From Comamonadaceae bacterium CG12_big_fil_rev_8_21_14_0_65_59_15 (GTDB lineage Bacteria; Pseudomonadota; Gammaproteobacteria; Burkholderiales; Burkholderiaceae_C): a stretch of 64,000 nt of DNA. Location of the stretch: positions 1 to 64,000 of the forward strand of contig PCUV01000009.1 in assembly GCA_002786915.1 (NCBI GenBank). Reading direction: 5' to 3'. Positions 15,136 through 28,614 of the stretch are shown here, piece by piece. Within the stretch, counting starts at the first letter, position 1. Every line of letters begins with the position of its first letter. The translations under genes and the position numbers were made by a program. The notes under the pieces were generated by a model. That model searched no databases. It was not told the origin of the DNA and was given only the letters and a program-made list of their open reading frames with translations.

Positions 15136-16206
15136 ATGAGCATCAACGCCTATCGCTGGCAAATGAGTCAGCCCGGTGCGCCGTTTGAGCGCGTCGAGTT
15201 TGTGGCTGAGCCAGGCGCCAATGAAGTCGTGGTGGCGGTTGCCGGTTGCGGCGTTTGTCACACCGATCTGGGTTTTTACTACGACGGCGTGCGCACCAAA
15301 TCTGAATTACCGCTGGCGCTGGGGCACGAGATCAGCGGCCGTGTGGTGGCCGCAGGCGCGGCCGCCCAACGCTGGCTGGGTAAAGCGGTCATCATTCCAG
15401 CCGTGTTGCCGTGCGGCGAATGCGATTTATGTCAGCGTGGCTTACAGCCGATCTGCCGCGCGCAGAAAATGCCAGGCAACGATATCCAGGGTGGTTTTGC
15501 CTCGCACATCGTGGTTCCCGGGCGTGGCCTGTGCGAAGTCGATGAAAAGCGTTTGGCCAGCGCTGGACTGAGCCTGGCGCAGGTCTCCATCGTGGCCGAC
15601 GCGCTGACCACACCGTATCAAGCGGTGCGCCGCGCCGGCGTCACGCCGGGCAGTCTGGCAATTGTGATCGGTGCCGGGGGTGTTGGCGGTTATTGCGTGC
15701 AGGTGGCCCGTGCTTTTGGTGCCCAGGTGGTGGCCATTGATGTCGATGATGACAAACTTGCACAGGTCGCGCAGCATGGTGCCGCCCTAACGCTCAACGC
15801 ACGTCAGCTCGACGGCAAGGCGATCAAGGCCGCCATCAATTCTTTTGCCAAGCAGCAAGGCCTGCGCAGCACCGAGTGGCAGATTTTTGAGTGCTCGGGC
15901 AGTGCCGCCGGTCAGCTCAGCGCTTTTGGCCTACTGGTGCATGGGGCCACCTTGTCGGTGGTCGGGTTCACCATGGATAAAGTCGAAGTGCGCTTGTCCA
16001 ACCTGATGGCCTTTGATGCCCGCGCCTTGGGTAATTGGGGTTGCCCGCCGGAATACTACCCAGCCGCCCTGGACCTGGTGCTCAGCGGGAAAGTGGCCAT
16101 CGCGCCGTTTGTCGAGCCCCATCCGCTGGACCGCATCAATGAGATATTTCCCGCCGTGCACAACCACTCCATCAAGAAGCGCGTGGTGCTGACCCCCACC
16201 GCCTAA
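15136..16206 (+). CDS. had: 6-hydroxycyclohex-1-ene-1-carbonyl-CoA dehydrogenase (Had/BamQ)
   Basis: A 356-residue zinc-type medium-chain dehydrogenase. Catalytic-zinc residues are in GCGVCHTDLGFYY and LGHEISG, the structural-zinc cysteines in CGECDLCQRGLQPIC, and the NAD motif is GAGGVGGYCVQVARAFGA. The family oxidises 6-hydroxycyclohex-1-ene-1-carbonyl-CoA to the 6-oxo compound with NAD+, the second step of beta-oxidation-like processing of dienoyl-CoA. Identity is supported by the oah and dch genes that follow. ATG 15136 is chosen because GAGGAG precedes it; an upstream in-frame ATG at 15076 would run through the leader hairpin. First gene of an operon reaching to 28614. Confidence 0.9.
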   Translation: MSINAYRWQMSQPGAPFERVEFVAEPGANEVVVAVAGCGVCHTDLGFYYDGVRTKSELPLALGHEISGRVVAAGAAAQRWLGKAVIIPAVLPCGECDLCQRGLQPICRAQKMPGNDIQGGFASHIVVPGRGLCEVDEKRLASAGLSLAQVSIVADALTTPYQAVRRAGVTPGSLAIVIGAGGVGGYCVQVARAFGAQVVAIDVDDDKLAQVAQHGAALTLNARQLDGKAIKAAINSFAKQQGLRSTEWQIFECSGSAAGQLSAFGLLVHGATLSVVGFTMDKVEVRLSNLMAFDARALGNWGCPPEYYPAALDLVLSGKVAIAPFVEPHPLDRINEIFPAVHNHSIKKRVVLTPTA

Positions 16207-16234
16207 ACCAGCATTGTCCAAAACAGGAGTCCCC

Positions 16235-26293: not shown

Positions 26294-27946
26294 ATGCCAA
26301 AGTTTCAATCAGCCGCTGAGCTGGAAGCATTCAGGGCGCAAATCCTGGCCAGCCGCAGCGCCAGCAAACCCTGCATCGCGGTGTGCGCCGGAGCAGCTTG
26401 CGACGGTCTGGACTCGGCGGCGGTGGCGGCCGCTTTCATAGCCGCAGCACAGCCGCTTGCTGACCAGGTTGAAGTCAGAACGACCGGCTGCCACGGTTAC
26501 TGCGAAAAAGGCCCCAACGTGGTGGTAACTCCCGGCGATATCTGCTACTTTGAGGTCAGTCCGGCCGACGTGCCTGAAATTCTTCAAGCCACGATCAAGG
26601 GCGAGGTCGTTGAGCGTCTGGTGTACCACGACCCCAACACCGGTGCCAAGGCGGTGCACATGAGCGAGGTGCCGTTCTACAAGCACCAGACCCGCCTGCT
26701 GACCGGCGACAATCCAAAAATCGATCCGATGAAGATCGACGACTATCTGGCTCTCGGCGGCTACGCAGCGCTGGTCAAAGCGCTGACCAGCATGAGCCCG
26801 CAGCAGGTGCTCGACGAAGTGAAAAAGGCCAACCTGCGCGGGCGCGGCGGCGGCGGTTTTCCGGCTGGCCTGAAATGGGAGACCACGCGCAACGCGCCCG
26901 AGAAAACCAAATACGTGATCGTCAACGGCCACGAAGGCGAATCGGCCGCTTTCATGGATCGCGCCATGCTCACCGGGAACCCGCATAAGGTGCTTGAAGG
27001 CCTGATCATCGGTGCCTACGCCATTGGCGCGCAAAAGGGCTTCATGTACACGCGCCACGACATGCCACTGCTGGAAAAGCATGTGCGCAACGCGCTGGCG
27101 CAGGCAGCAGAATATGGCTTGCTCGGCAAGAACATCCTGGGCACCGGCTTTGACTTCGAATGCGAGCTGCACTTTGACGTTGGCATTTTTGTCTCGGGCG
27201 AATCCTCCGCGCTGATGCGCTCGATCGAAGGAAATGCGCCCGAGCCGCGGCCCAAATACATCCGCACGTCGGTCTCAGGCATCTGGGACAAGCCAAGCAA
27301 CCTCAACAACGTCGAGACCTGGGCCAATGTGCCGCAGATCATCAACCAGGGTGCTGACTGGTTCACCAGCATCGGCACCGAGAAGAGCAAGGGCACCAAG
27401 CTGGTTTCGCTCTCGGGCCATGTGGTCAACAGCGGCATCGTTGAAGTGCCGATGGGCACGCCGCTGCGCACCCTGGTGTTTGACATCGGCGGGGGTGTGC
27501 GCGACGGCAAGACGCTCAAGGCGATCCACTTTGGTGGCGCTATGGGGGGTTCGATTCCGGCCGACCTGATCGATGCGCCGCTGGATTTTGACGGCATGTC
27601 CAAGCTGGGCGCGCCGATTGGTGCCGGTGGCCTGCTGCTGATGGACGAAGACACCGACATGGTCGAAGTGGCGCGCTACCTGATGGACTTTCTGACCAAG
27701 GAGTCTTGCGGCAAATGCGTGCCGTGCCGCGAAGGCATGGCGCAGATGCTGCAAATCCTCACCCGCATCACCGAGGGCCAGGGCGAGCCGGGCGACATTG
27801 AACGCTTGCAGGACCTGATCGACGTGACCGGCGTGGCCAGCCTGTGTGCGCTGGGCAAGACCTCGGGCGACCCGCTCAAAAGCATGTTCCGCTATTTCAA
27901 GCCCGAGTACGAAGCGCGCATTGCCAGCGGGAGTGCAACCAAATGA
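26294..27946 (+). CDS. bamH: Class II benzoyl-CoA reductase NuoF-like NAD(H)-binding subunit (BamH)
   Basis: A 550-residue protein. An N-terminal ~110-residue [2Fe-2S] thioredoxin-like domain (CAGAACDG, TTGCHGYCEKGPNV) precedes a NuoF core with the NADH/FMN loop GRGGGGFPAGLKWE (near residue 183), NGHEGESAAFMDRAML, and the [4Fe-4S] motif ESCGKCVPCREG near residue 475. It is the expected NAD(H) exit of the Bam complex. The stop overlaps bamI by 4 bp. Confidence 0.9.
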   Translation: MPKFQSAAELEAFRAQILASRSASKPCIAVCAGAACDGLDSAAVAAAFIAAAQPLADQVEVRTTGCHGYCEKGPNVVVTPGDICYFEVSPADVPEILQATIKGEVVERLVYHDPNTGAKAVHMSEVPFYKHQTRLLTGDNPKIDPMKIDDYLALGGYAALVKALTSMSPQQVLDEVKKANLRGRGGGGFPAGLKWETTRNAPEKTKYVIVNGHEGESAAFMDRAMLTGNPHKVLEGLIIGAYAIGAQKGFMYTRHDMPLLEKHVRNALAQAAEYGLLGKNILGTGFDFECELHFDVGIFVSGESSALMRSIEGNAPEPRPKYIRTSVSGIWDKPSNLNNVETWANVPQIINQGADWFTSIGTEKSKGTKLVSLSGHVVNSGIVEVPMGTPLRTLVFDIGGGVRDGKTLKAIHFGGAMGGSIPADLIDAPLDFDGMSKLGAPIGAGGLLLMDEDTDMVEVARYLMDFLTKESCGKCVPCREGMAQMLQILTRITEGQGEPGDIERLQDLIDVTGVASLCALGKTSGDPLKSMFRYFKPEYEARIASGSATK

Positions 27947-28614
27947 GTGAAATCAATCTGACCATCGACGGCCGGCAAGTCAAGGCCGAACCCGGTATGA
28001 CGGTGCTGGAGGTGGCGCGCCGCGAAGGCATTGACATCCCGACCCTGTGCCACCATGAAAAGCTCGAAGCTTTCGGCGGCTGCCGCCTGTGCATGGTGGA
28101 AGTCGAATCGCGCGGACGCACCAGCTACGCCGTCTCCTGCCTGTATCCGGTGGCACCCGACATTGCCGTGCGCACCCGCTCAGAAAAGGTGGACAAGATC
28201 CGCAAGCTGCTGGTTGAAGAGTTGATGGCGCACGCGCCCGACGCGCCGGAACTAGTGACGCTGGCCCGGGAGTACGGTGCTGATCGCAACCGCTTCGCGC
28301 GCGAGGCCTCTTTTTGCGTGCTGTGCGGACTGTGCGTACGCTACTGCGACGAGGTCAAGAAAAAGAACGCCGTGAGCTTCTTTGACAACGGTGCCGTGCG
28401 CCAGATCAAGTTCGTGCCGGAAGTCGCCAAGAACGAATGCTGGAATTGCCAGGAATGCTTTGCGATTTGCCCGACCTCCTACGCCCAGGCTGCCTACTTG
28501 TTGACCGAAGCGCTGGCATTCCCGGGCCAGCACCAGAGCGTCAAGCGCGCGACCAAGGCAGCCGCCAGAAAGCGCGTGGTCATCCCGATTGCGCCGGTGC
28601 CGATGACGGCCTGA
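27943..28614 (+). CDS. bamI: Class II benzoyl-CoA reductase NuoG-like iron-sulfur subunit (BamI)
   Basis: A 223-residue protein like the N-terminal part of NuoG/HoxU. It has a [2Fe-2S] site (LCHHEKLEAFGGCRLCMVEV), a central CVLCGLCVRYCDEV cluster near residue 126 and a C-terminal CWNCQECFAICP cluster. ATG 27943 overlaps bamH (ATGA). Last gene of the operon: the next gene is on the opposite strand, with only 6 bp between stop codons and no obvious terminator. Confidence 0.88.
   Translation: MSEINLTIDGRQVKAEPGMTVLEVARREGIDIPTLCHHEKLEAFGGCRLCMVEVESRGRTSYAVSCLYPVAPDIAVRTRSEKVDKIRKLLVEELMAHAPDAPELVTLAREYGADRNRFAREASFCVLCGLCVRYCDEVKKKNAVSFFDNGAVRQIKFVPEVAKNECWNCQECFAICPTSYAQAAYLLTEALAFPGQHQSVKRATKAAARKRVVIPIAPVPMTA

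Follow-up and report, generated by a model that had tools for sequence, protein, structure and literature searches.

A selenium-free class II benzoyl-CoA reductase operon in a Rhodoferax-type genome, and a possible exchange with class I reductases

How did a benzoyl-CoA reductase of the kind studied in anaerobes come to be encoded in a genome that also carries terminal oxidases? The question is raised by a 64,000-base stretch of Comamonadaceae bacterium CG12_big_fil_rev_8_21_14_0_65_59_15 (bases 1-64000 of a contig of 129,310 bases, here C72; referred to as the window), in which a sequence-only reading had noticed a complete operon for the ATP-independent, tungsten-dependent class II reductase. 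In the literature, class II enzymes are assigned to strict or obligate anaerobes and class I enzymes to facultative ones (PMC12096430, 2025; PMC5109826), with strict anaerobes being qualified by "mostly" in one case (PMC5400083). Taking all evidence jointly, we consider it highly probable that the window encodes a working, selenium-free class II reductase together with Dch, Had and Oah, which replaced a class I reductase in a facultative lineage whose genome has kept the scar of a bzd-type locus.

The operon spans positions 15136-28614 and comprises had, oah, dch and bamB to bamI as 11 intact, packed frames on one strand, in which an open reading frame scan of the window revealed no internal stops. 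This agrees with the sequence-only reading, down to the overlaps of bamC with bamB (8 bp) and of bamI with bamH (4 bp). Among the operon products, equivalog models exist only for Had, Oah and Dch, and all 3 proteins score above the cut-off; the TTG start codon of oah is uncertain, with the TIGR03200 family match beginning at residue 16. Since no Bam-specific model came up for the operon proteins in the NCBIfam scan, bamC to bamI were assigned through Hdr-, Mvh- and Nuo-type matches, gene order and identity to counterparts in other bam loci (44-96%, a range from which locus L074, with a BamB relative at 29%, was set aside). Compared with congeners, identity is mostly 78-96% per protein.

The catalytic subunit aligns ungapped over 653 residues with PDB entry 4z3w, which we take to be BamB of Geobacter metallireducens, reaching 1101 bits, while the next best structure, the aldehyde ferredoxin oxidoreductase 1aor, reaches 225. 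Residues named for the class II active site are E251, H255, E257, H260 and C322, with His255 being called invariant (PMC12096430, 2025), and the corresponding columns of the window BamB read E, V, E, H and C. This combination occurs in 118 of 121 sequences (the window and its 120 closest homologues among the matches listed), the remaining 3 differing at 251 or 255. Across BamB orthologues, residue 255 is His, Val, Thr, Ala, Asn or Ile, with Thr in the Geobacter-type loci L034, L036 and L061, and Ala is found at 251 in 2 distant orthologues (L056 and L070). The window thus encodes a catalytic subunit of the aldehyde:ferredoxin oxidoreductase (AOR) family with the Cys ligand at 322 as well as E251, E257 and H260, and all eight subunits lie in one cluster. 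The marks of an AOR proper, a tungsten without protein ligand and greatest similarity to AOR, are absent, and a general aldehyde oxidoreductase is ruled out by the 225 bits to 1aor against 1101 and by the presence of Cys322; in the tree, too, BamB groups with benzoyl-CoA reductases, as had been proposed. This is a complete, real class II reductase of known kind, and it probably works. Two further AOR-family proteins are encoded in the same genome (L103:1003-3504 on contig C66, with a C-terminal ThiS-like domain, and L105:1688-3541 on contig C68).

In the tree of BamB, which has 73 rows (rooted at the midpoint, the program inferring no root of its own; fragments below 560 residues and nine duplicate rows omitted), the window falls into a 9-row Rhodoferax-type clade (support 96). 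This clade is nested in a 20-row betaproteobacterial clade (100) including Georgfuchsia, Sterolibacterium and Sulfuritalea, which in turn belongs to a Pseudomonadota clade of 32 rows (100), the additional members being Ramlibacter-type rows and one Rhodospirillaceae. Under the midpoint root, the Pseudomonadota clade is placed among sequences of Thermodesulfobacteriota, Bacillota and Chloroflexota, which suggests an old transfer. The same group was recovered, on chosen loci, in trees of BamD (26 of 42 rows), BamE (27 of 43) and BamH (18 of 21); at least 71 bam loci were fetched in total, a sample and not a full census. The sequence-only reading had offered transfer or an overlooked lineage as alternatives for a Comamonadaceae-like host. 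The host assignment is borne out by the genus, which holds NCBI records such as Rhodoferax sp. palsa_997 (L005, genome G798) and Rhodoferax sp. STA_46 (L004, genome G833); of the two alternatives each holds in part, as an overlooked lineage does exist and a transfer, if old, is suggested by the tree. Recent foreign DNA is ruled out by composition: GC content at third codon positions (GC3), a comparison proposed in that reading, is 0.70-0.79 for the operon genes, inside the range of flanking genes (0.60-0.81), and the tetranucleotide profile of the operon correlates at 0.96 with L005 and 0.93 with L004, compared to 0.67-0.70 with Geobacter-type loci. The expectation that few betaproteobacterial examples exist did not hold, as at least 120 homologues with 86-98% identity were found, several of which are named Comamonadaceae, Rhodoferax, Sulfuritalea or Georgfuchsia. 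The betaproteobacterial class II lineage is therefore already present in the databases, while in the passages of open-licence literature covered by the search no class II cluster is reported from Rhodoferax, Comamonadaceae or Ramlibacter, nor is a selenium-free, class I-style operon in a host with oxidases and box genes described there.

Within the genus, window-type BamB occurs in 10 of 89 genomes with at least 91% identity (E values up to 1e-100), and a second type was found at 57-59%. In samples of 399 genomes each, BamB was found in the family only in the window's own genome and in one other (58%), and in the order only in the own genome. An rpoB tree (25 of 30 genomes matched; 25 rows, two of them less than half filled) scatters class II over several groups in the genus and leaves their deeper order open.

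Next to the known systems, the window operon combines familiar parts in a different arrangement. With BamBCDEFGHI of G. metallireducens it shares the eight subunits, the gap-free BamB, the tungsten Cys ligand and 3 of the 4 other named residues, but it differs in residue 255 and in BamF, where the window has Cys and the Geobacter-type loci L036 and L061 have TGA. Furthermore, had, oah and dch head the window operon, whereas in G. metallireducens oah lies in the bam cluster and had and dch elsewhere (PMC1924859), and the window's host has oxidases and box genes. The bam clusters of Syntrophus-type, clostridial, Chloroflexota and other anaerobes have the same subunit set and HdrA/MvhD-like electron module, but carry TGA in both BamF and BamE (e.g., L031, L035, L040, L044, L045 and L048) where the window has Cys. 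Closest are the bam loci of Georgfuchsia toluolica, uncultured Sulfuritalea, Sterolibacterium and Ramlibacter, which belong to the same Pseudomonadota clade (BamB 76-91% identical); those fetched from the Sulfuritalea, Sterolibacterium and Ramlibacter groups that include the sites have Cys in BamF and BamE like the window, the Georgfuchsia sites lying outside this set. No Rhodoferax-type had-oah-dch head was found in these fetched clade loci, whose upstream stretches vary in length; in the Rhodocyclales locus L073, oah-like (53%) and had-like (47%) genes are located near bamB on the other strand. The BamB of G. toluolica (P0094) is 88% identical to that of the window, and this organism is said to use class I in its toluene route by a paper citing its proteogenome (PMC9765128).

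The codons for these Cys residues set the whole clade apart. Residue 19 of BamF is encoded by TGC or TGT in the window and in 24 of 24 Pseudomonadota-clade loci holding the site, and by TGC in the outside locus L062, while 12 other loci have an in-frame TGA; the latter comprise Syntrophus-type, other deltaproteobacterial, clostridial, Chloroflexota and Geobacter-type loci as well as unnamed records, and one of them, L050, is titled "Proteobacteria bacterium", its BamB falling outside the Pseudomonadota clade. Residue 77 of BamE is Cys (TGC) in all 26 clade loci, in three Geobacter-type loci and in L062, and an in-frame TGA in 12 loci (L031, L035, L040, L044, L045, L047, L048, L049, L050, L051, L054 and L069), 42 of the 43 supplied loci having passed the filters of this check; two stops in BamE of L062 (residues 13-14) lie upstream of the likely start. 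Because the TGA stands at a fixed position opposite Cys, we infer that it encodes selenocysteine, and gene callers may consequently split bamE at residue 77. The codons would thus point to three grades of class II complex, with two, one or no selenocysteine. SelB did not exceed its cut-off in any of the ten class II genomes of the genus (best match 192 bits, cut-off 242), compared to 2 of 14 control genomes, and the matches below the cut-off probably represent other translation factors. Selenocysteine in BamF and/or BamE, a property of studied members that we do not take as defining, is accordingly absent from the window. The selenium-free form appears to be common to the whole Pseudomonadota clade, and L062, outside the clade, likewise lacks the TGA codons. 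Class II reductases were termed W/Se-containing in earlier work, and a 2004 paper reportedly described selenocysteine proteins in the benzoate metabolism of Desulfococcus multivorans. A UGA-containing BamE has been named in the same species (PMC5109826).

What the reductase may have replaced became apparent from congeners. In genomes G838 (L145) and G812 (L148), had-oah-dch is followed directly by bcrCBAD, presumably of the Thauera type; Had (88%) and Oah (90-93%) are close to those of the window, but the reductase is an unrelated, ATP-dependent one, in whose place the window has bamB-I. All 7 products scanned (BcrC, BcrB and BcrA of both genomes and BcrD of G838, the contig of G812 ending inside bcrD) exceed their equivalog cut-offs. 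On a single contig, a third genome, G843, combines an intact bcrCBAD (88-91% to G838 by BLAST) with bamB-I and a second bam set, as an intermediate would. Upstream korAB genes are common to class I G838 and class II G833, G854 and G850, and upstream liv-like genes to class I G812 and class II G798. Moreover, Oah of the window shares 93% identity with its counterpart in class I G812, 92% with that in class II G798 and 88-89% with those in class II G833 and G854, and a tree of concatenated Had, Oah and Dch unites the window with G798 and G812 in one clade (100/99). A single class II clade is rejected by the approximately unbiased (AU) test on the concatenation (p-AU 0.00014) and on had (0.009) and oah (5e-6); this test omits G824 (no class assigned), G843 (no had, partial oah) and two bzd outgroup rows, and the rejection is stronger with G824 retained. 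It should be noted that the AU test presumes groups named beforehand, while here the class labels came from gene content and the question arose after the identities had been seen. The own genome, scored 100% complete, has no match to PF06050, the family of BcrB/BcrC-type HGD-D subunits, while the two control genomes, E. coli and M. jannaschii, do; the sequence-only reading had asked for this class I check.

Furthermore, contig C66 of the own genome appears to bear a scar left by a second class I locus, of the bzd type. A second Oah (53-54% identical to the window Oah) occurs in six genomes with bzd-type class I genes, and such an oah2 is present on C66 (TIGR03200 633 bits; 90% to class I loci). 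It is accompanied there by a gene for a regulator of BzdR/BoxR type (393 bits to PRK08154; 72-76% to its counterpart adjoining bzdN in G842), by a gene with a hemerythrin domain and by one for a protein of 461 residues that has no Pfam match, is presumably NnrS-like and shares 62% identity with the product of the gene at the corresponding place in G842. No bzd genes were found in the own genome. Directly before oah2 lies a 33-codon remnant of had, corresponding to residues 324-356 of the 356 of class I Had (25 of 33 identical, 76%; E 8e-12), whose score of 58 bits was reached by none of 200 shuffles (best 28.5).

Taken together, these loci make it somewhat probable, in our view, that Rhodoferax swaps whole dearomatising reductases as cassettes behind a conserved had-oah-dch head, and that class II has fully displaced class I in the lineage of the window, by way of the selenium-free form of its clade, with aerobic respiration and the box pathway retained. 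Of the new elements, we rate highest the series of congeners in which the shared genes are joined to bcr, to bam or to both, in combination with the scar; least secure is the direction in which the reductases were exchanged, the sequences allowing more than one order of events. Mutual exclusion of the two classes, in contrast, was dropped as an explanation, because G843 has both and because the bzdO query, which found class I in 7 of 89 genus genomes but in none of the ten bearing bamB, is blind to the bcr type. G838 also has a bzdO-like gene (L146, contig C3; 77-78%) at a contig end, so that two class I types may coexist.

Several observations weigh against this account. The dch tree alone does not reject a single class II clade (p 0.31). 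At E 1e-30, the bzdO query misses the bcr copies of G812, G838 and G843, and the evidence on bcr-type genes covers the loci fetched from these three genomes. Bam could also have been gained and bcr lost separately, in any order. The scar is not a clean deletion, as regulator and oah2 now face apart and a short-chain dehydrogenase unmatched in class I loci lies between oah2 and the hemerythrin gene, which implies that rearrangement accompanied the loss. In tetranucleotides, the bam stretch deviates slightly (0.916 compared to 0.953-0.974 for other pieces), His255, a zinc ligand that we do not count among the defining features, is replaced by Val in the window BamB, and the tungstate check yielded a TupA-like binding protein in the own genome at 225, below the curated cut-off of 400. 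The dch result also leaves room for a history without replacement, in which had-oah-dch recombined among strains and bam and bcr are old alternative alleles. Within the genus, BamB proteins are 91-92% identical to that of the window, and the bcr products of G812 and G843 are 77-91% identical to those of G838, and this roughly similar divergence implies that both may be long resident in the genus; a single class II clade is rejected by had and by oah, however, and the scar and the double genome G843 point to loss and co-existence, and we regard this history as less likely than replacement.

Within the genus, the bam genes probably took the place of a class I reductase behind had-oah-dch. At its tungsten site, BamB would convert benzoyl-CoA to the 1,5-diene, independently of ATP and with low-potential electrons from reduced ferredoxin, while bifurcation in the Hdr/Mvh-like subunits would drive electrons downhill to a higher acceptor, either NAD+ via BamGHI or quinone; Dch would then hydrate the product, Had oxidise it and Oah open the ring. 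With oxygen, the adjoining BoxABC would take the same benzoyl-CoA. For class II enzymes, benzoyl-CoA (about -622 mV) has been described as being reduced by electrons from ferredoxin whose potential is lowered through bifurcation, with NAD+ or menaquinone as the opposing acceptor (PMC12096430), and this chemistry would apply to the window enzyme by homology only.

A different main substrate, such as hydroxy- or methylbenzoyl-CoA, is an improbable alternative. The fold has diversified, as second BamB types with changed active-site columns in the genus imply, and residue 255 differs from the solved BamB; nevertheless, none of the four remaining active-site residues has changed, the operon itself supplies Had, Oah and Dch for unsubstituted benzoyl-CoA, each above its curated cut-off, and the surrounding phenylacetate and box genes, the pad part being tentative, converge on benzoyl-CoA. 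The second bam type (BamB 57-59% identical; columns T, E or D, D, H, C) was found in G843 (contig C76, L094:14841-17006 to L095:6607), where it sits directly behind the first set, in L085 (G798) and L084 (G858), and in L075 (G762) from another genus of the family, and it is possibly a reductase for another aryl-CoA substrate. The Ramlibacter-type loci L021, L023, L024, L025, L027, L028 and L059 have a divergent bamB copy (53-55%; columns W, E, D, H, C) beside bamB-I in opposite direction, accompanied by a bamC copy in 6 of the 7.

Still less probable is a relic operon, silent or rarely in use, in a cell that degrades benzoyl-CoA by box alone. Complete boxA, boxB and boxC genes do lie 1.3 kb downstream, and bam of the window type is present in only 10 of the 89 genus genomes; but eleven intact, packed frames with the identity to congeners given above are hardly those of a relic, and no class I reductase (PF06050) is available to take over. 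Three COX1 matches above the cut-off (haem-copper oxidase) and the box genes suggest, by gene content, that the host is no strict anaerobe. BoxB is found in 31 of the 89 genomes, in 9 of the 10 with bamB compared to 22 of 79 others (Fisher p 0.0002, ignoring kinship), and lies on the same contig as bamB at a distance of about 12 kb in G798 and about 36 kb in G843. The meaning of the box operon, the loss of selenocysteine and the exchange of reductase classes were absent from the sequence-only reading, whose account of the bam operon itself stands.

The remaining neighbourhood (Table 1) includes an alpha/beta hydrolase gene adjoining bamI, homologues of which lie one gene from bamI in the Rhodocyclaceae locus L008 and beside bcrC in G843, each of these homologues being adjoined by the same unnamed protein. 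The pad-like genes are a possible route into benzoyl-CoA. The kor genes, 13 kb from the operon, possibly supply ferredoxin; their KorB, truncated by the contig start, is 75% identical over 153 residues and KorA 56% identical to those of G838 (L145).

Table 1. Genes of the reductase operon and its surroundings, in order of their position in the window.
Feature	Position	Strand	Evidence or remark
2-oxoacid:acceptor oxidoreductase (korA-like 483-2219, korB-like 1-459)	1..2219	-	TIGR03710 538 bits, cut-off 483
phenylacetyl-CoA / phenylglyoxylate oxidoreductase-like genes (padBC, padGHI-like)	4409..11597	-	pad models below cut-offs
had, 6-hydroxycyclohex-1-ene-1-carbonyl-CoA dehydrogenase	15136..16206	+	TIGR03201 574 bits, cut-off 339; ATG at 15136
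oah	16214..17347	+	TIGR03200 619 bits, cut-off 464
dch, cyclohexa-1,5-dienecarbonyl-CoA hydratase	17414..18193	+	TIGR03189 386 bits, cut-off 293
bamB	18257..20218	+	PDB 4z3w 1101 bits, 653/653 residues; E251, E257, H260, C322 kept, V255
bamC, Fe-S partner of BamB	20211..20750	+	ferredoxin-type NCBIfam matches; 83-89% to other Rhodoferax-type loci
bamD, HdrBC-like subunit	20754..21908	+	TfrB/HdrC-type NCBIfam matches
bamE, HdrA-like flavin subunit, Cys77	21923..25021	+	HdrA2 938 bits; codon check
bamF, MvhD-like subunit, Cys19	25037..25807	+	family match; codon check
bamG, NuoE-like subunit	25833..26285	+	family match; start checked
bamH, NuoF-like NAD-binding subunit	26294..27946	+	TIGR01959 425 bits
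bamI, HoxU/NuoG-like Fe-S subunit	27943..28614	+	family match; start checked
alpha/beta hydrolase	28621..29802	-	adjoins bamI
boxC, oxygen-dependent benzoyl-CoA pathway	29942..31594	+	TIGR03222 929 bits, cut-off 712
boxB, benzoyl-CoA epoxidase	31622..33106	+	TIGR03225 892 bits, cut-off 499
boxA, reductase of epoxidase	33119..34429	+	TIGR03224 713 bits, cut-off 459
livHMGF-type transporter genes	34590..38700	+	matches below equivalog cut-offs
paaK, phenylacetate-CoA ligase	39504..40829	+	TIGR02155 698 bits, cut-off 646
pcaF, 3-oxoadipyl-CoA thiolase	40804..42045	+	TIGR02430 717 bits, cut-off 597

An assembly or binning artefact joining two genomes is scarcely credible: the own genome (4.34 Mb) is in 118 contigs with an estimated contamination of 1.68%, but a chimeric contig is unlikely because the had-oah-dch-bam order recurs in other assemblies (L004, L005, L007, L010 and L055), GC3 fits the flanks and, on the contig of 129,310 bases, the operon is flanked by 15 kb on its left and about 100 kb on its right.

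The finding bears on an old gap in the benzoate metabolism of Rhodoferax ferrireducens, which grows on benzoate with Fe(III) and for whose genome a 2009 analysis gives no ATP-dependent reductase genes and only scattered genes moderately similar to some bam genes (PMC2755013). Direct tests may be permitted by Ramlibacter lithotrophicus strain RBP-1 and Georgfuchsia toluolica, which are named members of the clade, and expression might be simpler for a class II enzyme free of selenium than for the selenoproteins. Moreover, with both classes standing in one genus behind the same accessory genes, and with double and scar states beside them, the costs and benefits of the two chemistries may become comparable in close relatives.

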